Assembly (NCBI GenBank): GCA_903925285.1
Contig: CAIYET010000069.1
Span: forward strand, 1 to 32,047
DNA: 32,047 bases
DNA from: Candidatus Hydrogenedentota bacterium
GTDB lineage: Bacteria > Hydrogenedentota > Hydrogenedentia > Hydrogenedentales > SLHB01
Direction: 5' to 3'
Positions 13,638-28,852 of this stretch are shown one piece after another. Under the pieces are notes generated by a model that saw nothing but the letters and a program-made list of their open reading frames with translations, did not search any database and was not told where the DNA came from. The stretch's first letter is position 1. Every line of letters starts with the position of its first letter. A program made the translations under genes and the position numbers.

Positions 13638-15461
13638 TCAAAAAGTGGCCTCCACCTCGACGGGCGGCGCTCCGTCCGTGTCCCATCCGCGTTTCTCGTA
13701 GTAGAGCGAGAGCATCTTTTCGAATTCGTGCGCGTCGATGGTCTTTCCTGCATTAGGCCCCGTGAGGACGGGCACCTTCGTGACCTTGTACGGCAGCGAA
13801 TCGGATTTCCGTGTCGCGCCCAAACGGATGTTCAGCCGCCGCGTCAGGTTGTAGACATGGTCGGAAAGTTTGAGCAACTCTTCGAGCGTCATCTGTTTAC
13901 CGGTCACGTAACTGTAGAACTTCTCGTAATGGCGCTCGTTCAAACCGAGTTCAATCCACGGCAGTCGGCATACACCGAGCATGTCGAACAGTGGGCGCAC
14001 GGCTTGGTGGTACATGACGAGATCGACCTTCTGTTCGGCGGTCCATGCCGCCCCCTCCTCGATCTCTTTTGCGATGGTCCATGCCCGCGCGTGGTGCGCG
14101 CCAATGTCGGAAGTCGCGTACGCGAGGCCCATCGACGTCCCGACCCGGCTGTCGTAAGCCGACTGTTCAAGCCCCTTGACTTGGAGCAGCACTTTCTCCA
14201 TTTCGGGCCACTGCGCGATGATGCGGCGCGAGCCGTCCGCCAGAATGTCACCGATGCCTTCGCGCCGTGCGATGCGGTGCATAAGGTCGAGAATCGCGTC
14301 ATCGTCGTTCCAGGCGATTGCCTTGCCATCGAGATCGGCGAGCGTTACGATCCCTTTCTCATAGCCCTCGATTATCGCTCCGACGATGCTTCCCGTTGAG
14401 ATCGTGTCGATGCCGAGTTCGTCGCACAATTTGTTGGCCGCGAGCACCGCGTCGAAGCGGTCGATGCCGAGATTCGAGCCGAGCATGGCGCACGATTCGT
14501 ATTCGGGACCTTCGGTTACGGTACCCGCGTACTTCCCATTTTTCACCAGACAGATATTGCTGCAGCACATCGGGCACATAAAACACGCGCTATCGCCGAT
14601 CTTGTAATGTTCGAGCATCGTCTCGCCATTGATCTTGTCATGCGCCGCAAACGTGGTCGCCTTGAAATTGTACGTGGGCAGGATGCCTTTCGCATTTGCG
14701 TACTCGATGACGTTCATCAAGCCCTGCTGCTGCCACAACCGGAAATATTTGTGGTCCGTCATATACTTGACGGCCTTGCGCGTCTCGTCGGCCAGTCCGT
14801 TCATGTCGAAGACCGGCAGATCCTTCGTACCGCGGACTGCGATGGCCTTGAGGTTCTTCGATCCCATGATCGCGCCGATGCCTGTCCGCCCCGCGTTGCG
14901 GCTCCAATCCGAATTAACGCACGCGAAGCGTACGAGGTTCTCGCCCGCGACGCCGATCGCGGCGACATGGAGGTTGTGCGAAGCGAGCTTCTCCTTGATG
15001 AGGCCTTCCGTTTCGAGACAGGTCTTGCCCTTTAATTGCGGCATCGGAATGATGCTTACTTTCTCGTTGTCGATGAACAGAATCGACAGTTCCGACGCCG
15101 CGCCCGTGATGGCGAGATAATCGTGGCCCGTCTGGCGCAGTTCGACGCCGAACCCGCCGCCCATCGACGAGTCGCCGTAGAAACCAGTCGCCGGCGAAAT
15201 CGAAATGAACGAGTTCTTGCCCGAAGACGGCAAATAGCAGCCCGTAAGAGGACCGGGCGCCACGACCAAAAGGTTTTCCGGACCTAGCGGGTCCACCTTG
15301 AAGTCGTGCGCCTTGAGGTTGTCCCACACGAGCTTCGCCCCGAATCCGCGCCCGCCGACGTACCGTTCGATGAAATCCTCGGAAAGGTCGCGCCGTTCCG
15401 ATGTGCCCGCCGTCAGATCGACATGCAGACCTTTGCGAAAGTAGCCGCCTTTGATATTCAT
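13638..15461 (-). CDS. aor: Aldehyde:ferredoxin oxidoreductase (tungsten-type)
   Basis: Start MNIKGGYFRKGLHVDLTAGTSERRDLSEDFIERYVGGRGFGAKLVWDNL; CFMCPMCCSNICL cluster ligands and later LGVCRLPW; ORF extends upstream artefactually to 15722. Confidence 0.93.
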   Translation of the reverse strand: MNIKGGYFRKGLHVDLTAGTSERRDLSEDFIERYVGGRGFGAKLVWDNLKAHDFKVDPLGPENLLVVAPGPLTGCYLPSSGKNSFISISPATGFYGDSSMGGGFGVELRQTGHDYLAITGAASELSILFIDNEKVSIIPMPQLKGKTCLETEGLIKEKLASHNLHVAAIGVAGENLVRFACVNSDWSRNAGRTGIGAIMGSKNLKAIAVRGTKDLPVFDMNGLADETRKAVKYMTDHKYFRLWQQQGLMNVIEYANAKGILPTYNFKATTFAAHDKINGETMLEHYKIGDSACFMCPMCCSNICLVKNGKYAGTVTEGPEYESCAMLGSNLGIDRFDAVLAANKLCDELGIDTISTGSIVGAIIEGYEKGIVTLADLDGKAIAWNDDDAILDLMHRIARREGIGDILADGSRRIIAQWPEMEKVLLQVKGLEQSAYDSRVGTSMGLAYATSDIGAHHARAWTIAKEIEEGAAWTAEQKVDLVMYHQAVRPLFDMLGVCRLPWIELGLNERHYEKFYSYVTGKQMTLEELLKLSDHVYNLTRRLNIRLGATRKSDSLPYKVTKVPVLTGPNAGKTIDAHEFEKMLSLYYEKRGWDTDGAPPVEVEATF

Positions 15462-15991
15462 ATCTGTTCCTTTCCGATCTCGGCGTACTGGAGCGTCTTC
15501 GTCTCGCCCTTCTCGTTGAATTCGATTTCCTTCATTTGCGTGTAACTCAAGACGTTGTTGAGTCGCTTGCTCTCGCCCAGCGCATACTCGGCTACCAAAC
15601 GTAACGCGCCCTTCGGACAATGTTTCACGCACTCCGGATCGCCGCCGCACAAGTCGCACTTGATCGGATATTCGCAATCGTCGTGCGCGTACATGGCCCC
15701 GAACGGACATGACTCGACGCAATGGAAACAGGAAATACAGAGATCCTGGTCCAACGCCACGACGCCATCCTTCCGGCTAAGCGCGTCGACCGGGCATACC
15801 GCCTCGCACGGCGGCTTCTTGCATTGACTGCAAACGATCGGCATTCGGATTATCGGATGCGGGTAGGTGATGAGCACGCGTATCGCGCTCTTCTTGGGGT
15901 TGTTTACGCCGAAATGCTTGATCGCGCACACGAGTTCGCACATTTTGCACCCGGAACATTCCGAGGGAATGACCGCCAACTTTCGCGACAT
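15458..15991 (-). CDS. 4Fe-4S ferredoxin-type electron transfer subunit for AOR
   Basis: CSGCKMCELVC, CSQCKKPPCEAVCPVDAL, CISCFHCVESCPFGAM, CDLCGGDPECVKHCPKGAL; stop overlaps AOR start (ATGA). Confidence 0.93.
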   Translation of the reverse strand: MSRKLAVIPSECSGCKMCELVCAIKHFGVNNPKKSAIRVLITYPHPIIRMPIVCSQCKKPPCEAVCPVDALSRKDGVVALDQDLCISCFHCVESCPFGAMYAHDDCEYPIKCDLCGGDPECVKHCPKGALRLVAEYALGESKRLNNVLSYTQMKEIEFNEKGETKTLQYAEIGKEQI

Positions 15992-18933: not shown

Positions 18934-19887
18934 CTAATGGGTGTCGAGGCCGTGCAGCATGTAGAGGGCGTGTTCGAGCGTCTTGAGAATTTCGCTCATG
19001 TATTCGTCGACGGCCTTGACGCTGCCTGGCAGGGTGTAGATAAGTGTTTGTCCAAAGACGGCGGCGACGGACCGGCTCAACAGGACGTTTGGCTTGTCCG
19101 CGCCGTACTTGGTCCGGATATGTTCCATGATGCCGGGAACGATCTTGTCGGCGAGGTCGGCGACGACGTCCGGCGCGATGTCGCGCGGACCAATGCCCGT
19201 GCCGCCGGTCGTGAATACGACGTGTGAGTGGGCGTCACGCGCGGCTACCAGTTCCTCGCGCAGTCTTTCCGCGTCGTCGGCCATAAGCGTCGTGACCGCT
19301 TCGAAACGCCAGCGATTTTCCTGCGCGAACGCTTCGAGCCGCTCGCGAATCCGCGGACCGCTTCGATCCGCGTAGACGCCTTGGCTGGCGCGGTCGCTCA
19401 GCGTAACGATGTGGCATCGCAGTGCGCGCGGCACATGTACGATCGCGTCGCCCGGTCTCACGAGTCCGCCGCGGACGACGCGCGCAAACACGCCTTCCTT
19501 GGGCATCACGCAACGGCCGACCTGCTGGAAAATTGCACAACCCGCGCCGTGGCATTGTTTGCCCAACTGCGTCACTTCAAGTTCTGCCGACGGCCCGATC
19601 GCAAGCCGGTCGAAGATCGCCACGTCGAGCAGCCCGACGTCCCGCGTCGTGATGTTCTCCGCAAACTCGCCGGGGAGAAAAATCTGGCCCGCTTCGGCGG
19701 AAAACCGTTCGATGCTTTCGGCGGCCAACAGACTGACTTGACGGTGCCAATCGCCCGCATGGGCGTCGCCTTGCACGCCCCGCTCGTCGATGACGATTTC
19801 CGCCATCGGGTGTTTCGACGTGCCCTGTCGCTCGGACAGGTTTACCGAGACGACCAGTCCTTCCGCTGTATGTGCTTGAGTCATCAT
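18934..19887 (-). CDS. MOSC domain - MogA/MoaB (molybdopterin adenylyltransferase-like) fusion
   Basis: N-terminal GVQGDAHAGDWHRQVSLLAAESIERF...GEFAENITTRDVGL (MOSC); C-terminal HIVTLSDRASQGVYADRSGPRIRERLEA...VVFTTGGTGIGPRDIAPDV (MogA/MoaB). Confidence 0.92.
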   Translation of the reverse strand: MMTQAHTAEGLVVSVNLSERQGTSKHPMAEIVIDERGVQGDAHAGDWHRQVSLLAAESIERFSAEAGQIFLPGEFAENITTRDVGLLDVAIFDRLAIGPSAELEVTQLGKQCHGAGCAIFQQVGRCVMPKEGVFARVVRGGLVRPGDAIVHVPRALRCHIVTLSDRASQGVYADRSGPRIRERLEAFAQENRWRFEAVTTLMADDAERLREELVAARDAHSHVVFTTGGTGIGPRDIAPDVVADLADKIVPGIMEHIRTKYGADKPNVLLSRSVAAVFGQTLIYTLPGSVKAVDEYMSEILKTLEHALYMLHGLDTH

Positions 19888-19960: not shown

Positions 19961-20533
19961 CTACGGCTTCTTCTCGTCCTTCTTGTCTTCCTTATGTTTG
20001 TCGATTACGCCGTCGGCGCAATGGATCTCGATGGTTTCCAGGCACTTCACGCTACGCCCGACCCATTTGTCGCCGGGAAAAACGATACGGAATTTACCTT
20101 CCAACGGGGGCAAAGGTTCCGTGCCTTTGTCAAGGGCGATCATGACGCGTTTGCCTTCCGTGGTCATGGTAAGTTCGGTCCATGACGCCAGGGTCTGGTA
20201 ACCATCCGTTCCTCGAAACACGACGTACATATTTTCGCGTCGGTATTCGCTCGCGCCTTCTGCCGCCTTGGCTCTCTTGAGAACCTCGCTCAACCGGACG
20301 CCCGAATAGTCGAAGATGCCGAGGAACCCCGACGAGTGCCCCACGCAGATAAGTTCCTCTTCGATTTCCTGTGTCATCTTACGCAGGTCGTCGGCGGTCA
20401 ACGGAATTTTCGACCCATCGAGGTCCACAATGGCGAGCGATTCCGAAGAGCGCGAAAGCCCCTCGGTCCAAGCTCCAAACGCAAACAACAAAACGGCTAC
20501 TACTGCGAACACGCTGCACTTCACGTTCAACAT
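19961..20533 (-). CDS. Oxidoreductase molybdopterin-binding (SUOX-like) domain protein, secreted
   Basis: Likely start MLNVKCSVFAVVAVLLFAFGAWTEG at 20533; ELICVGHSSGFLGIFDYSGVRLSEVLKRA and GTEPLPPLEGKFRIVFPGDKWVGRSVKCLETIEI. Confidence 0.65.
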   Translation of the reverse strand: MLNVKCSVFAVVAVLLFAFGAWTEGLSRSSESLAIVDLDGSKIPLTADDLRKMTQEIEEELICVGHSSGFLGIFDYSGVRLSEVLKRAKAAEGASEYRRENMYVVFRGTDGYQTLASWTELTMTTEGKRVMIALDKGTEPLPPLEGKFRIVFPGDKWVGRSVKCLETIEIHCADGVIDKHKEDKKDEKKP

Positions 20534-20564
20534 GGTACTGGCTCCCTCCTGTTTTCCATTCCAT

Positions 20565-21422
20565 TCATGGCGTGGGATTCCCGACTGTACTCGGATCCGT
20601 TGGATCCGTAGGACCGCCCTTGCCCAGCTTTTCGGCGAGATAGCGAGAACAGGGGTATACGTCCTCATAGCGAAGCCATCCGGTATGGCCGTCAAGGTAG
20701 AGACAGTTCATGCCGCCCGGCACGTGGTTGAATTGATTGCCTGTGCCGCCCGGATTCTGGCATACAACGTCCCACATGACCGGAATCGTGCTTTGTGCCA
20801 TGGCGGTAGCGGAGGGGTTGTTGATATCCGTGACGAAGAAGCGCTCGACGCCCTCACGCAGGCGGTACAGCCTTGCGCCCTCGAACTCGATATCGGCGGT
20901 TACGAAGCTTTCCGGCAGGACTTTATTGCTGTCGCGCGCGTCTCCTGACGCGCTTTTTTGCGTGCCCCAATCGTCGTCCGAACGCGTGGCCCATCCGAGG
21001 TACATGTACGAATAGTCCCGGAATTGTTGCGCGAGTTCCTTGAATCGAAGATCGCGCAGTTGGTCGATGACGCTCTTTATCCGCGCTGCCGTAGGATCGG
21101 AGGGACAGAAAATGATGCTGTAGTCCGTCATGTACTCGGGGTATATTCCCGGCCCCCAACAGAACGAGTGCGTCGGTACGGCCGTCGCTCCCCCTGCGGG
21201 ATAATAGCCCGGAAACTGCGGCGGAAAACTCTGCGCTCCGGCCTCGTTGGCATACATTTTGAACACAATCCCCAATTGCTTGAGGTTGTTCTGGCAGGAC
21301 GACCTGCGTGCCGATTCGCGTGCGCGCGACAGCGCCGGCAGTAATATCGCGGCCAGAATGCCGATGATCGCGATGACCACAAGCAGTTCGATGAGCGTAA
21401 AACCGTGTCTTCGTCTTAACAT
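20565..21422 (-). CDS. Prepilin-type N-terminal cleavage/methylation protein, DUF1559-like
   Basis: [49 protein letters not shown]-terminal [15 protein letters not shown]. Confidence 0.9.
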
Positions 21423-21588
21423 TACGCAGTTCCTCCCAGACAGAATGTTTTGATTCGTCTATTCATGTCCATTGCCTTTCCTGTTTGTCGATGCGGATAC
21501 AACCGATATGCACGACAAAACATATCGGTGCCAAAATAAGAACCGGTCCCAGGTGCGAGCGCCGCGCTTTCCGGTTTCCACAGCGCGG

Positions 21589-22056
21589 CTATTCACGTTC
21601 GATATCCTCCTTTCGTTTTTCGATCAACTCAATGGTGCCTATGGCCATCTGCTTGTCCACGGCCTTACACATGTCGTACACCGCCAGGAGTGCGACGCTG
21701 ACGGCCGTCAACGCCTCCATCTCGACGCCGGTCTTGTCGGTGGCAACGACTTCGCTCTCGACGCCGACTCCATCGCTTTCCAGTCGCGCGCGCACTTGCA
21801 CGTTGTCGATGTGAACGGTGTGGCACAACGGGATGAGTTCGCAGGTCCGCTTTGCCGCCTGGATCCCGGCGATTTCGGCCACGGTCAGCACGTCGCCCTT
21901 CTTGATGCTGTTCTCGCGGATGAGCGCTACCGTCTCCGGGGCCATGCGGATGTGCCCGCGCGCACGCGCGATGCGGCGCTGGACGGGTTTCGCGCTGACG
22001 TCCACCATGCGTGCGCGGCCTTCCTCGTCGAGGTGCGACAGCTTGTTCACAGTCAT
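21589..22056 (-). CDS. moaC: Cyclic pyranopterin monophosphate synthase
   Basis: MTVNKLSHLDEEGRARMVDVSAKPVQRRIARARGHI...KKGDVLTVAEIAGIQAAKRTCELIPLCH...ATDKTGVEMEALTAVSVALLAVYDMCKA; the ORF track's 401-aa form includes spurious upstream codons. Confidence 0.95.
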   Translation of the reverse strand: MTVNKLSHLDEEGRARMVDVSAKPVQRRIARARGHIRMAPETVALIRENSIKKGDVLTVAEIAGIQAAKRTCELIPLCHTVHIDNVQVRARLESDGVGVESEVVATDKTGVEMEALTAVSVALLAVYDMCKAVDKQMAIGTIELIEKRKEDIERE

Positions 22057-22871
22057 CCTCCTATAGTATTGAATCGGCTCTGGCTCGTCTCGCCGCACAA
22101 GGGTTTCGATGCAAGAGCCTGCAAGATTGCCTCTCTCGGACCCAACGCGCGCACGCTGAAACGGAGATCGTTGAAGAGGCACGGACGGATCATGCCGTCG
22201 CAGGAAAGCCGGAGCCGGTTGCAGCGCGCGCAATCGCCACCTGTCCCGCCAACCACGATTGAGAAATCGCCGATCTCGAGGTTCATGCGGCGGATGAAGC
22301 GCACCTCGAAACCCTCTTCGGCGGCGTACGCCGCCACGGCGCGCGCGTCGGGCTCGTCCGGTGTCTCTTGAATAACGCAATTGAGTTTGACAGGGTCGAG
22401 GCCCGCCTCGCGAGCGGCGCGAATCCCGTCGAGGACGGTTTGGACATCGCCGCCGCGCGTAATGGCCGCGTAACGCCCCGGATCGATTGCGTCGAGGCTG
22501 ACGTTGACACGGTGCAGACCGGCCTCGGCGAGCGGGCGCGCGAATTCGGCCAGGCGCGTCGCGTTGGTGGTCATACCGAAGTCCGCGATCCCTTCGATCG
22601 CGCTCAACATGCCGATCAGCGTCGCGATGCCGCGCCGTACAAGCGGCTCGCCACCCGTCACGCGCACTTTGGTCACGCCCAGTTCGACGGCCGTTTTCGC
22701 CACGTCGGCGATTTCCTCGAAACGCAACACATCCTCGTGGCGGATGATCGGCACGCCATTCTTGGGCATGCAATAAATGCACCGCAGATTGCACTTGTCG
22801 GTCACGGAGATCCGAAGATAGTCTATTTGTCTATTGAAGCGGTCGAACACGTACCAACGTTCCTTTCTCAA
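22053..22871 (-). CDS. moaA: GTP 3',8-cyclase (radical SAM), short form
   Basis: YLRISVTDKCNLRCIYCMPKNGV; VRVTGGEPLVRRG; C-terminal CARCNRLRLSCDGMIRPCLF and terminal GG. Start TTG at 22871 or GTG at 22850. Confidence 0.93.
   Translation of the reverse strand: MRKERWYVFDRFNRQIDYLRISVTDKCNLRCIYCMPKNGVPIIRHEDVLRFEEIADVAKTAVELGVTKVRVTGGEPLVRRGIATLIGMLSAIEGIADFGMTTNATRLAEFARPLAEAGLHRVNVSLDAIDPGRYAAITRGGDVQTVLDGIRAAREAGLDPVKLNCVIQETPDEPDARAVAAYAAEEGFEVRFIRRMNLEIGDFSIVVGGTGGDCARCNRLRLSCDGMIRPCLFNDLRFSVRALGPREAILQALASKPLCGETSQSRFNTIGG
22827..22865. repeat. Direct repeat copy A (39 bp exact) at moaA 5' end
   Basis: ttgtctattgaagcggtcgaacacgtaccaacgttcctt, identical to 23043..23081. Confidence 0.95.
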
Positions 22872-23042: not shown

Positions 23043-23081
23043 TTGTCTATTGAAGCGGTCGAACACGTACCAACGTTCCTT
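23043..23081. repeat. Direct repeat copy B (39 bp exact) at moeA 3' end
   Basis: Identical to 22827..22865; includes the moeA stop codon. Confidence 0.95.
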
Positions 23082-24225
23082 CCTCGAAGACGCCCGCGCC
23101 GACGGGAAGCACGATGAGACCGTCGGCCTCGCACAGGGCATTGATGTGGGCCGAGCCATGATATGCGCCCGGCTCGACGCGTCCGTCCGGCGTGATCCGT
23201 ACGGGAAGCCATGTTTCGCGGTCCACCCGTTTCGGTTCGAGGCGTGACGCGAGCGGCAGCATCGAGTGGGTGGGACGAAAGTCATGTCCCATGAGTTTGT
23301 ACAAGAACGGTTTCACGAGGATCTCGAACTGGATGAAGGTCGAGACCGGATTGCCCGGCAGTCCGAAGCAATAGACTGTAGGCGAGACGCCGAACGTCGT
23401 GGGCTTACCCGGCTTCATGGCGATCGAATCGAAAAGGATCTCGATACCATTCTGCGTCATGATACCCGGCACGAGATCAAAGTCGCCCTTCGATACGCCC
23501 CCGGAAAGCAGAACCACGTCGTTTTCGGCCATCGCCCGCTTGAGCGCACCGTCGAGCGAGGCTGCCGTGTCGCGCGCGATCCCGTAATACGTGGGTAGCG
23601 TGTCCGCGTCGAGCGCCTGCGCGTACAGTTGACAACTGTTGCTCGTGCGGATTTGCGAAGGGCCGGGGCGCTCGCCGGGTTCGACGAGTTCGTCGCCCGT
23701 GGCGATGATCCCGACGCGTGCTTTTCGGTACACGCGTGGCCGCACGCATCCCACCGTAGCCAGCACGGCCACATGCGGCGGCGCAATACGCTCGCCGCGT
23801 TCGAGTACCACATCGCCCTCGCGAATATCCTCGCTCCTGCGGCAGATATTGTCGCGCGTCGACGCGCCCGTAAAACGGACGACGCCTTCGCGCACCTCCT
23901 CGGTGTACTCGATCATGACGACGCAGTCCGCGCCTTCCGGCAACATCGCGCCGGTCATAATCTTCGCGCATTGCCGCTCGCCGACCGTCTTCGTCGGCGA
24001 CGTTCCCGCTTGAATGATCTCGATGACGGCGAGTTCGCGATCAAGGTCGGCGCGACGGCACGCGTAACCGTCCATGGCCGACTTGTCGAACGGCGGCATG
24101 TCGATATCCGACCTAATATCTTCGGCGAGGATTCGATGGAGCGACTCGGACAACGCGACCTCTTCCGAATCGAGGACGCGCGCGCACTCCATCACGATTT
24201 CCTGCGCTCGAACAAACGAGATCAT
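23047..24225 (-). CDS. moeA: Molybdopterin molybdenumtransferase
   Basis: DIDMPPFDKSAMDGYACRRADL; ARVGIIATGDELVEPGERPGPSQIRTSNS; VVLLSGGVSKGDFDLVP; FGLPGNPVSTFIQFEI. Start MISFVRAQEI at 24225. Confidence 0.95.
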   Translation of the reverse strand: MISFVRAQEIVMECARVLDSEEVALSESLHRILAEDIRSDIDMPPFDKSAMDGYACRRADLDRELAVIEIIQAGTSPTKTVGERQCAKIMTGAMLPEGADCVVMIEYTEEVREGVVRFTGASTRDNICRRSEDIREGDVVLERGERIAPPHVAVLATVGCVRPRVYRKARVGIIATGDELVEPGERPGPSQIRTSNSCQLYAQALDADTLPTYYGIARDTAASLDGALKRAMAENDVVLLSGGVSKGDFDLVPGIMTQNGIEILFDSIAMKPGKPTTFGVSPTVYCFGLPGNPVSTFIQFEILVKPFLYKLMGHDFRPTHSMLPLASRLEPKRVDRETWLPVRITPDGRVEPGAYHGSAHINALCEADGLIVLPVGAGVFEEGTLVRVRPLQ

Positions 24226-24803
24226 GTGCCATTCACTCCTTGACGATGAAACGTCCAACGCCCGTCGACGACGGCGACGTCATCGAGTTCGAGGTCGAAA
24301 CGCGCCCCGTCCCACAGTACGATCCGGTCGGCGTGGCGGCGCACCGCGTCCGCGGACGCTTTGACTGTATCGAGATCCGTGTGGCGAAACAAGAAGAATA
24401 ACCCAGGTTCGACGACGGTTCGCAGGCTGTTGGATTCACAGACGATGGGACGATTCGCGCCGATGGTCTCGATGAGCGCCTGTGCACCTTCCACGAGATG
24501 TTCTTTCGCAACGCGTAACCAGTAAACCTTGAACGCGCCCGCGTCGAGCAGTCGTTGCGTGTCTTTCGTGCCGCCACGAACGGTTTCCTCCGTTATGCAG
24601 AAGCGCCCGTCGAGCGTCGCGCAGACGCCGCACCCGTCGCCGCCGCGCGGACACGTTCCGTCGCGTTCTTGAATTGTGGTGACTTTCGCCGCAACGATTT
24701 CGTGTCGTCCCGAAAGGTGCGCGATCAGCGCGCACGCAAACGTGGTCTTGCCGGAATTCCGGTCTGCGGAACCGATCATCAACATGTTGGGCGCTTGAAT
24801 CAT
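24222..24803 (-). CDS. MobB-like P-loop NTPase with Cys-rich motif
   Basis: MIQAPNMLMIGSADRNSGKTTFACALIAHLSGRHEIVAAKVTT, CPRGGDGCGVC; start at 24803; stop overlaps moeA start (ATGA). Confidence 0.65.
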   Translation of the reverse strand: MIQAPNMLMIGSADRNSGKTTFACALIAHLSGRHEIVAAKVTTIQERDGTCPRGGDGCGVCATLDGRFCITEETVRGGTKDTQRLLDAGAFKVYWLRVAKEHLVEGAQALIETIGANRPIVCESNSLRTVVEPGLFFLFRHTDLDTVKASADAVRRHADRIVLWDGARFDLELDDVAVVDGRWTFHRQGVNGT

Positions 24804-24804
24804 G

Positions 24805-25860
24805 CTATTCCTCGATGAAACGTGCGGCGGACGCTTTGAAACTAACCCACGCGTCCTTGCCCACTCGAAGTTCGAGCCGTTCGAGCGATTCGGTCGTGAC
24901 CCACGCCGTTGCCTCGAGACCGATGTCGATGGTCGCCTCGATACCCAGCCGTGCGGGCGCAACATCCGTTACCGTGCCTCGAAACGTGTTCTGCGCGCTC
25001 GTATCGCCTTTCGCGAGCGACACGGTGATATCCTCGCTGCGCACGATCAGATAGCCGGGGCCGGGCGTCGCGTCGGTGAGCACCGCGAACGATAAATCGC
25101 CCGCGACGAATTTAGGCGTCCCGCCCGCGTCCCCCGGTAAAAGACGGCCCTTGTACACGTTTCTAATCCCGACAAAGCGCGCGACGAACTCGGACGTGGG
25201 ATGATGGAAGACATCGCGCGGCGTGCCGACTTGGACCACCGTGCCGTGTTCCATCACGCCCACGCGCGTCGCGAGCGAGACCGCTTCTTCATAATCGTGC
25301 GTGACGTGGACGACCGTATGGCCGCGCCGATGCAGGGTGCGCAGCAACGCGCGCATCTGGCCGCGCGCCTGCGTGTCCAACGACGCGATAGGCTCGTCGA
25401 GCAGCAGACACCTCGGCTCGACGGCCAGCGCTCGGGCCAGCGCCGTGCGCTGCGCCTCGCCGCCGGACAGCGTTCCCGGCATACGCTCGAGTAGCGCGCC
25501 CACCCCGACTTCATCCGCCAACGCGCGCGTGCGTTCATGCATTTCGTGGCGTTTCATCCCGCGCGCGCGAAGACCATACGCGATGTTGCCTTCGACCGAC
25601 ATATGCGGGAAGAGCGCCTGATCTTGATAGACCAATCCAAAACCACGATCCTGGATCCGGGCATGAGTGATATCGTCGTCGTTCCAGAAGATGCGTCCAG
25701 CGTCCGAGGTCTCGATTCCCGCGAGCATTTCGAGCAGGACCGTTTTGCCGACGCCGGACGCGCCGAGCAGGACGAAGTAGTCGCCGTCGGCCACATCGAA
25801 GGCGACGTCGCGTACCGCGAATTGACCGAGGCGTTTGCTTAGGTTCTCAACGCGCAGCAT
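24805..25860 (-). CDS. wtpC: Tungstate/molybdate ABC transporter ATP-binding protein
   Basis: LLGASGVGKTVLLEMLAG, LSGGEAQRTALARALAVEPRCLLLDEP, VTHDYEEAVSLATRVGVMEHG, C-terminal TOBE-like region; start MLRVENLSKRL at 25860. Confidence 0.85.
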   Translation of the reverse strand: MLRVENLSKRLGQFAVRDVAFDVADGDYFVLLGASGVGKTVLLEMLAGIETSDAGRIFWNDDDITHARIQDRGFGLVYQDQALFPHMSVEGNIAYGLRARGMKRHEMHERTRALADEVGVGALLERMPGTLSGGEAQRTALARALAVEPRCLLLDEPIASLDTQARGQMRALLRTLHRRGHTVVHVTHDYEEAVSLATRVGVMEHGTVVQVGTPRDVFHHPTSEFVARFVGIRNVYKGRLLPGDAGGTPKFVAGDLSFAVLTDATPGPGYLIVRSEDITVSLAKGDTSAQNTFRGTVTDVAPARLGIEATIDIGLEATAWVTTESLERLELRVGKDAWVSFKASAARFIEE

Positions 25861-26656
25861 GGGTTTGCCGCCTATCGAGTAATCTCGCCACGATGAAAAA
25901 GACCAGGCATATGCCGATAAACAGCACCGAAATGGGACGGGTGTACTTGAGACCAAATGCGCCGAAGCGCTCGTAAATGAGTACGGGCGCGATGATCGGA
26001 TGATAGGCGACAATCGCCACGGCGCCGAATTCGCTGAGGCCCCGCGCCCACATCAGAATCAGCCCGGACAAGATCGCCCGCCACGCCAGCGGCACCGAGA
26101 TCGTGAAGAAGACGCGAGTGGGGGATGCGCCCAGTCCGAGTGCGGCCTTTTCGAGGCGTTCGGGCACGGCGCTGAACCCGTCGCGCGCGGCGTTGAGCAG
26201 AAACGGCAGGCTCACGAATGCCATCGCCGTCATGATACCCGCCGCGCCGCCCACGAAATGAATGCCAAACCGCTTGCCCAGCGTTCCCACGAAACTGTCG
26301 CCCGCGATGAATCCAAGGATCGCGATGCCCGCCGCCGAATGCGGGATCACGATCGGCAAATCGATGATCGCCATCACGAGACGCTTGAACGCAAACTCTT
26401 TTCGTGCCAGCAGGTACGCGAATGGAATTGCAGCGACGGCCATAATCGATGTCGCCGCCATCGAAGTCCACAACGTCAGAAAAACGCTGCGCTGCACTTC
26501 GACGTCGTGCGCGGTCTGTACCACTTCCGCCCCGGACGTTTTCAATACCATACCCGCCAACGGTGCGACGATAAACAGCAGTACCAAGCCGCCCAGGAAT
26601 GTGAACAGGAGGTGGAGCGGTTCGAACCGCGCAAACGGCTTGTTTCCGTTAGTCAT
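25847..26656 (-). CDS. wtpB: Tungstate/molybdate ABC transporter permease
   Basis: FAYLLARKEFAFKRLVMAIIDLPIVIPHSAAGIAILGFI; EKAALGLGASPTRVFFTISVPLAWRAILSGLILMWARGLSEFGAVAIV (EAA loop). Confidence 0.88.
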   Translation of the reverse strand: MTNGNKPFARFEPLHLLFTFLGGLVLLFIVAPLAGMVLKTSGAEVVQTAHDVEVQRSVFLTLWTSMAATSIMAVAAIPFAYLLARKEFAFKRLVMAIIDLPIVIPHSAAGIAILGFIAGDSFVGTLGKRFGIHFVGGAAGIMTAMAFVSLPFLLNAARDGFSAVPERLEKAALGLGASPTRVFFTISVPLAWRAILSGLILMWARGLSEFGAVAIVAYHPIIAPVLIYERFGAFGLKYTRPISVLFIGICLVFFIVARLLDRRQTHAAR

Positions 26657-26700: not shown

Positions 26701-26740
26701 AAAGGCCCGGCAAAGACGGAGTTCTCCCTACCGGGCTTTT
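26701..26740. terminator. Hairpin with terminator-like features
   Basis: aaaggcccgg-N20-ccgggctttt; on the minus strand followed by a T-rich tract. Between wtpA and wtpB. Confidence 0.5.
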
Positions 26741-26805
26741 CATCGGGGTTTTGGGTTTGGATAACAGAAATTTCACTTTTACGGAAAATTACCGCTTCGA
26801 TTCGG

Positions 26806-27020
26806 TTTCCCCGAAGGGGAGGAACATGAATAGCCGTGGGTGTAACCCACGGATACAAAACCGACATCCATCGACCCTGGAATGGTCGTACTATGTCCAT
26901 ATCATTGTAAATAAAGGACGACACCGTGCTCCTTGTGCGACCCTTCCAGGGTCGGTGGTTAAGCATTTGTGCCCGTGGGTTATCACCCACGGCTATTCAT
27001 GTTCCTCCCCTTCGGGGAAA
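26806..27020. mobile_element. REPIN-like non-autonomous inverted repeat element
   Basis: 37-bp perfect terminal inverted repeats (26806-26842 and 26984-27020), each adjoining an internal ccgtgggt/acccacgg hairpin, plus an inner 11-bp inverted repeat (26872-26882 / 26944-26954). Confidence 0.75.
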
Positions 27021-27084
27021 TTTAGTTGAGACGACAACTTTCCCAAAGAGCGAAGCTTTATAAAGTACGCTAAATTCGGAAGAG

Positions 27085-28035
27085 TCACAATTTCGATGCG
27101 TATTTCCGGAGGGCTTCGGGAAGTTTGTCGTACGTTTCCGACGCGGCAGGCACGAGGGACGGCTGGCCGTTCTTTTCCATGATCGCCAGACCCTTACCTT
27201 TTTCGAGCAGGAAAGCGACGAAGGCCAGCGCGGCCTTCGGGTTCGGCGCGTTCTTCGGGATCGTAACGCCGTAGACCATCGGTTCGCCACGTTGCGTCAT
27301 CATCTCGCCAGGCTTCGTGCCCGATACCTCGACCGACGCCGTCTTGTACAGTGCCGCGAACTTCGCATCTTTGAGGTTGATTTCGTTGGGCAACGCGAGC
27401 CATTTCAAACCGTGCTGGCTGGCCACGGAACGATACAGGAAGACGTAATCGATCGTTTTCGTTTCGAGCAGGGCGAGGAGATCCGTCTCCTTTGGCCGCA
27501 TGTAACGGAGGTCCTTTTTCAAGAACTTTTCCGCGAGACCCGGCTGCTTATAGAAGTCCTCGGCGAGTTTCATCGTAAGAACGGCGCGATAGCCGCACGG
27601 ATCCGCGTTCGGGTCGGCGCGCGCAAAAGCTACATCGTCGCGCAGGAGGATCTCGTGCCAATTCTTATCCGTGATTTCCTTCGCATACTTGCTGGCCTCG
27701 GTGTAGACGATGGCCATTTCATTCCCGGCGAATTTGATGTTCCATTCCGCGAATTTCGGGATCAACAGCGTGTCGATGACCGCGTAGTCCGCCGACGCCA
27801 TCACGTCGCACGGCTTACCCAGATCGCTGATCTTGCGCGCACATTCGCGGCTTCCGGCCGCTTCGGACAATACGCGCACGCCCGGATATTCCTTATTGAA
27901 GGCCGCCGTAATTTCCTTAATCGGCACGCTCAGGCTCCCGGCATGGAACACGGTCAAGTCGCCCGAAACGTCGTCTGCCGCCAATACTGCGCCTGTACTC
28001 ATACAAAGGATAACAACAAGCAAAGTGGTCCTCAT
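27085..28035 (-). CDS. wtpA: Tungstate/molybdate substrate-binding protein, WtpA type
   Basis: DLTVFHAGSLSVPIKEITAAFNKEYPGVRVLSEAAGSRECARKISDLGKPCDVMASADYAVIDTLLIPKFAEWNIKFAGNEMAIVYTEASKY...RADPNADPCGYRAVLTMKLAE; start MRTTLLVV at 28035. Confidence 0.93.
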   Translation of the reverse strand: MRTTLLVVILCMSTGAVLAADDVSGDLTVFHAGSLSVPIKEITAAFNKEYPGVRVLSEAAGSRECARKISDLGKPCDVMASADYAVIDTLLIPKFAEWNIKFAGNEMAIVYTEASKYAKEITDKNWHEILLRDDVAFARADPNADPCGYRAVLTMKLAEDFYKQPGLAEKFLKKDLRYMRPKETDLLALLETKTIDYVFLYRSVASQHGLKWLALPNEINLKDAKFAALYKTASVEVSGTKPGEMMTQRGEPMVYGVTIPKNAPNPKAALAFVAFLLEKGKGLAIMEKNGQPSLVPAASETYDKLPEALRKYASKL

Positions 28036-28400
28036 TTCAACGTCCTTTCCGCCCAAGAGGCAAATGCCTTATCCACCGCCTTCGCGACCCGCTCGTGAAA
28101 GCGTTCATACTCCTTTAGCCACTTCCGGCCCGTGTCCGTCAGTAGCGTCTCGCCGCCGTCGCTTCCGCCGCGCCGCCGTTCGAGAAACGTGACGCCCAGC
28201 GCCTTCTCCGCATTGCGCAGATCGCCCCAAGCCTTTCGGTAACTGATGCCGAGAGCATCCGCCGCCGCACGCAACGACCCTTCCCGCTGGATCGCTTCGA
28301 GCAAACGCCATTTACCGCCGCCGAAGACCTCCTTCGGGTCGTCCCCACGCAGCCACAGCTTGAACCCTGGACAAAAAAGTTTCGGACGGCGCGCGATCAT
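28032..28400 (-). CDS. ModE N-terminal-domain-like transcriptional regulator (no molybdate-binding domain)
   Basis: FKLWLRGDDPKEVFGGGKWRLLEAIQREGSLRAAADALGISYRKAWGDLRNAEKALGVTFLERRRGGSDGGETLLTDTGRKWLKEY; overlaps wtpA start by ATGA. Confidence 0.9.
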   Translation of the reverse strand: MIARRPKLFCPGFKLWLRGDDPKEVFGGGKWRLLEAIQREGSLRAAADALGISYRKAWGDLRNAEKALGVTFLERRRGGSDGGETLLTDTGRKWLKEYERFHERVAKAVDKAFASWAERTLK

Positions 28401-28588
28401 TTGAAACAGCCGAGCTGGCAACTGGCGATTCTGACCTTTTCGTCATTGCACGCCTGACCGACCGCGCTCAACGTTTCGCCGAGTTGTTCGGCGATCTTGA
28501 AGGCCTGCGCACAAGGCAGAATCATCCGCCCATCCCGCTCGACCGCCGCTTGCCGGACGGCTTCCCGCAACGCCTGTGATGGTTCCAT
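28397..28588 (-). CDS. Small (63 aa) protein with CQLGCF C-terminal motif
   Basis: MEPSQALREAVRQAAVERDGRMILPCAQAFKIAEQLGETLSAVGQACNDEKVRIASCQLGCFK; stop overlaps the ModE-like start (ATGA). Confidence 0.75.
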   Translation of the reverse strand: MEPSQALREAVRQAAVERDGRMILPCAQAFKIAEQLGETLSAVGQACNDEKVRIASCQLGCFK

Positions 28589-28599
28589 TGTGGCTCTCC

Positions 28600-28623
28600 C
28601 GTTATGTACACGCCAACATATCG
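28600..28623. promoter_or_regulatory. Candidate ModE operator
   Basis: CGTTATGT-ACACGCCA-ACATATCG, 7/8 inverted repeat, 12 bp upstream of the first ATG of the Mo/W operon. Confidence 0.65.
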
Positions 28624-28852
28624 AAGGCGATTCTAACACATAGCGCGCGGGGCTTTCACAAATGGCGCCAAGAAGCGCAATCGTTGTATTTTTAGTACGC
28701 AAAAACAGGCTGAATAGGGGTTTTCCGACAGCGCTGATTCATTCTTCGTCCTTAACTTGAAACCTGTACGGCGTAGTGGTACCATCCTTCTTACATTCCT
28801 TACAGCATCAAGCCTCCGGTCTGGAGCAACGGTTTTCCTGCGGACATATGAG

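Follow-up and report, generated by a model that had tools for sequence, protein, structure and literature searches.

In E. coli, the ModE protein represses modABC and activates moa (PMC11980592), and its consensus operator is the dyad CGNTATATA-N6-TATATANCG (PMC545781). Desulfovibrio has genes for ModE proteins that consist of the DNA-binding domain only (DBD-only), and its mod operons carry the box CGGTCACG-N14-CGTGACCG instead of the E. coli type; metal sensing by DBD-only ModE proteins was noted as unclear (PMC545781). Here we analysed a stretch of 32,047 nucleotides from Candidatus Hydrogenedentota (the window), in which an original prediction had placed a ModE-operator-like palindrome in front of a molybdenum/tungsten (Mo/W) operon. 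Conservation and co-occurrence with modE support a ModE-type operator, and positions 28600-28623 are very probably a real switch site by which a stripped-down regulator would control its own operon. The features of the locus are compiled in the table.

On re-checking of letters and coordinates, 28600-28623 was exactly as described and reads CGTTATGTACACGCCAACATATCG, with half-sites that are indeed 7/8 complementary. The palindrome (operator 1) is located upstream of the first gene of the operon (gene 1; ATG at 28588-28586, minus strand) as proposed, but the gap is 11 bp and not 12, and it abuts the SD-like GGAG of that gene. On the coding strand, a TG precedes the -10 box to give an extended -10, TG-t-TAGAAT, which ends 6 bp ahead of operator 1; the first bases of the operator are likely the start point of this predicted promoter. 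No other sequence in the window matches the ModE site of E. coli modA as well as operator 1 does; the modA site reads CGTTATATTGTCGCCTACATAACG in NC_000913.3, letter for letter as in the original prediction, and ends 19 bp ahead of the modA ATG. The claimed identity of 18/24 was reproduced and rose to 19/24 on the other strand, while in simulated 32-kb sequences 18 identities were reached in 4/300 and 19 in 0/300. The site also fits 13 of the 16 fixed consensus positions of the ModE operator. The CGCC of the spacer had been counted into the match, but relatives show no conservation of the spacer (≤0.22 bit in the central columns), so this agreement with E. coli is a coincidence. Bare palindromy was not significant either, as 17 8-N8-8 palindromes of such quality occur in the window and 17.8 are expected; thus the weight rests on the sequence match and on conservation.

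Table. Predicted features of the Mo/W locus, with positions in the window
Feature	Position	Strand	Basis
Sigma-70-like promoter GTGAAA-18-TAGAAT	28630..28659	-	Consensus match only
ModE-type operator 1, coding strand CGATATGT-TGGCGTGT-ACATAACG	28600..28623	-	Site search and relatives
Gene 1, 63-aa four-cysteine protein (C26, C47, C57, C61; ...CQLGCFK)	28397..28588	-	Unnamed family
ModE DNA-binding domain protein, 122 aa	28032..28400	-	Profile and structure-sequence matches
WtpA-type tungstate/molybdate binding protein	27085..28035	-	NF003196 373 bits (cut-off 355), TIGR03730 320 (cut-off 243)
Inverted-repeat (MITE-like) element, ~250 bp, between wtpA and wtpB	26772-27054		
Terminator-like hairpin between wtpA and wtpB, in transcription direction	26705-26736	-	
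WtpB-type permease	25847..26656	-	NF040839 270 bits, under cut-off 340
WtpC-type ATPase, C-terminal TOBE domain	24805..25863	-	Profile matches
MobB-like P-loop protein	24222..24824	-	Weak match
MoeA	23047..24225	-	Profile match
MoaA	22053..22871	-	Profile matches
MoaC	21589..22080	-	Profile matches
ModE-type operator 2, coding strand CGATATGTTTTGTCGTGCATATCG	21504..21527	-	Search for operator 1 half-sites
DUF1559/N-methylation (pseudopilin-like) protein, first gene after operator 2	20565..21422	-	
Oxidoreductase molybdopterin-binding domain protein	19961..20536	-	
MOSC + MoCF_biosynth (MogA/MoaB-like) fusion	18934..19887	-	

Searching the window for the half-sites revealed a second site, CGATATGCACGACAAAACATATCG at 21504-21527, which the original prediction did not contain. 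Operator 2 lies in the gap after moaC, 81 bp ahead of the next gene, and precedes a further molybdopterin cluster encoding the DUF1559 protein, the oxidoreductase molybdopterin-binding protein and the MOSC-MoCF fusion; an exact or near-exact equivalent occupies the same position in two relatives (G012 and G063), again after moaC and ahead of the DUF1559 gene. Subsequently, the 8.28-Mb assembly was searched with the pattern CGWTATGY-N8-RCATAWCG rather than by a full weight-matrix scan. Exact matches were operators 1 and 2 only, both bordering Mo/W genes, and no copy with one mismatch was found elsewhere in this genome, while the two-mismatch background equalled the control (20 versus 20). The pattern was partly drawn from these two sites, so other genomes provide the independent test.

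Among 67 genomes of the order, 16 carry a modE gene, a count that omits a weak LysR-like match in G023. The exact site was found in 12 of these 16 genomes and in none of the 51 without modE (Fisher p about 3e-10, computed with 52 non-carriers), and the reversed-pattern control had 0 matches in all genomes. The exact sites in relatives are usually positioned just ahead of gene 1, and the order gene1-modE is kept in all 15 genomes with sequence upstream of modE. Conservation in orthologous promoters, on which the original prediction had staked the site, was observed in 10 of these 15 at zero or one mismatch: eight are exact, two have one mismatch (G058, G010), and two further sites are degraded (G059, G063). 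The remaining three promoters, all of genus g41 (G056, G064, G066), have no site in front of gene1-modE, so autoregulation is not universal. Alignment of 21 sites gave the half-sites CGATATGY and RCATAWCG, a CGNTAT-type sequence in a 24-bp dyad. As the gene 1 proteins of relatives are 38-65% identical to that of the window and the spacer is random, the arms are held by selection. In addition, a more distant ModE-like gene of a genome outside the order (G091) is preceded at ~40-55 bp by CGTTATTCTATCCTGCATAACG, which has a 6-bp spacer (L047:10028-10049).

The second gene of the operon encodes the ModE DNA-binding-domain homologue that had been proposed (TIGR00637 E=1.8e-22, PF00126 above cut-off), its 79 bits with TIGR00637 being below the NCBIfam ModE-domain cut-off of 98.5. 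It matches PDB entries 2ijl, 1o7l and 1b9m in profile comparison, and its recognition region, SYRxAW and RGGxxGG, is nearly invariant in relatives and common to the ModE structures 1b9m/1o7l and the DBD-only 2ijl. No TOBE/Mop molybdate-binding domain was found in the protein, nor has any complete orthologue a TOBE domain, as all stop about 110-126 residues past the alignment start. By sequence, the product is a DBD-only ModE homologue and not a canonical ModE. Since the regulator lacks a TOBE or other oxyanion-binding domain, any Mo/W sensing must pass through another factor; the only frames with TOBE in its own genome are WtpC and one other of ABC-ATPase size.

We consider it quite likely that the operon's own single-domain ModE binds operator 1 and represses gene1-modE-wtpA, with the signal coming via another factor. 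The protein would bind the palindrome as a dimer, each subunit contacting one half-site. Because the predicted start point of the gene1-modE-wtpA promoter falls within the operator, bound ModE would block transcription, so that uptake of tungstate/molybdate would be under negative autoregulation. This ModE probably also controls the second molybdopterin cluster through operator 2. The Mo/W or cofactor signal would arrive through gene 1 as the leading candidate or, alternatively, through the TOBE domain of WtpC.

An operator at which the regulator activates, or both activates and represses, is improbable. It would agree with the dual role of E. coli ModE, but most sites coincide with the predicted start point or follow it, and activators seldom function from such positions. 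In the window as well as in G043, G062, G012, G058 and G059, a -10-like box precedes the site by 1-6 bp; a site at or after the predicted start that recurs in relatives has a geometry that suits repression. We give little credence to binding by a separate, unlinked regulator, with the linked ModE-like protein serving other targets. The different box at the mod operons of Desulfovibrio, which has DBD-only modE genes, provides a precedent, but here the exact site is confined to genomes with modE and fits the ModE consensus geometry, and the linked ModE is the sole HTH_1 match in its own genome. Slightly less credible still is a function of the palindrome as RNA, that is, translational control by a Moco-type riboswitch or by a hairpin adjoining the Shine-Dalgarno sequence. 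In favour of such a reading, the predicted 5' leader contains the site or begins at it, and in most relatives the site adjoins the SD, but its arm positions do not covary over the 21 sites, which argues against an RNA stem: the pair 3/22 is standard in 9 of 21 (8.7 if independent), and no arm pair exceeds independence. Furthermore, in G043 and G062 the site precedes the SD by a wide margin and the ATG by roughly 80-120 bp, at moaA the site directly follows the -10, and an Rfam scan of the window, including the Moco riboswitch, gave no match at gathering threshold. Least credible of all is a functionless palindrome resembling the E. coli site by chance, which the frequency of equally good palindromes in the window would allow but which is contradicted by conservation, co-occurrence with modE and genome-wide exclusivity.

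A linked ModE that lacks TOBE domains leaves the sensing role to a partner, for which gene 1 may qualify. Its four cysteines are invariant within the phylum, and its distribution coincides with that of modE in all genomes but G065, where the contig ends within modE; gene 1 is an obligate neighbour of the Hydrogenedentota DBD-only ModE. Searches of Pfam, NCBIfam and PDB sequences with gene 1 returned no family. In other phyla, its domain occurs as a fusion with MobA (L108) or with a MobB-like protein (Halanaerobium, L102). Elsewhere in these phyla it is encoded next to moeA (L092, L098), in the vicinity of moaA-moaC-MOSC genes, or ahead of genes for a radical SAM protein and a BcrAD-type ATPase (L093, L095, L097, L101), and tandem duplicates are sometimes seen; modE was not found beside it in the loci examined there. 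The AlphaFold model is a small alpha/beta structure of fair confidence (pLDDT 86), in which two successive helices could form a helix-turn-helix, and a fold search with this model gave no PDB match below E=0.5.

Sites were also found at other promoters of the relatives. The moaA promoters of G058 and G059 have an exact or near-exact site one base past TATACT, and in G064 and G066 such a site precedes an 823-aa secreted protein. In G056 and G066, an exact site is located ~60-70 bp ahead of an NAD-type aldehyde dehydrogenase gene (PF00171; L055:1501-1524, L056:1501-1524). In relatives, gene1-modE often has genes for tungsten-type aldehyde ferredoxin oxidoreductase next to it; these genes and modE occur in 16 genomes each, 14 of them common (p about 1e-10), and the NAD-type enzyme is possibly a tungsten-free substitute. 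A more elaborate scheme, which we regard as rather unlikely, would have a two-part sensor in which ModE binds DNA and gene 1, standing in for the TOBE domains, signals metal, Fe-S or Moco status, together with a g41 regulon that extends to the NAD-type aldehyde dehydrogenase, by which a tungsten-free enzyme would replace the tungsten aldehyde oxidoreductase. The sites within moaC of G043 and G062 (L063:1501-1524, L054:1501-1524) were rejected as operators: their letters encode the MoaC motif LCH[TA]VHI, whose Leu codon is TTA in either genome, the moaC of the window is without them, and they are probably a coding coincidence.

The wtp, moeA, moaA and moaC genes bear out the Mo/W operon proposed downstream of the palindrome. 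Between wtpA and wtpB, where the gap is short in relatives, the window carries the MITE-like element, with at least 40 genome copies, mostly 83-94% identical, and the terminator-like hairpin. These make one long transcript doubtful and may split the operon, so that wtpB onward would be only partly under the gene 1 promoter. The same contig also contains aldehyde ferredoxin oxidoreductase and ferredoxin genes (13638-15991).

Our data thus outline a candidate, testable Mo/W regulon for an uncultured phylum, in which an E. coli-like ModE operator persists though the regulator lost its sensor domain, and flag an unannotated Moco-linked cysteine protein family as a possible replacement sensor. Operator 2, the regulon in relatives and the conserved gene 1 partner go beyond the original prediction. 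As at E. coli modA, a 24-bp dyad of equal half-site spacing (18-19 of 24 bases shared) is positioned ahead of an oxyanion ABC transporter, 11 bp here and 19 bp there from the start codon, and the DNA-binding domains of the regulators are homologous. Nevertheless, E. coli ModE possesses two TOBE domains and its gene is not cotranscribed with modABC, whereas the Hydrogenedentota regulator is a DNA-binding domain only, its gene in the window is inside the operon, a cysteine-protein partner accompanies it, and operator position 7 is an invariant G and not A. The transporter resembles WtpABC in that WtpA clears both NCBIfam cut-offs, and differs in that WtpB and WtpC score under their equivalog cut-offs. 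With PDB 2ijl and the single-domain ModE of Desulfovibrio, the regulator shares one ModE DNA-binding domain and no TOBE; in contrast to the Desulfovibrio proteins it retains an E. coli-like box, and in contrast to both it always has gene 1 adjacent.
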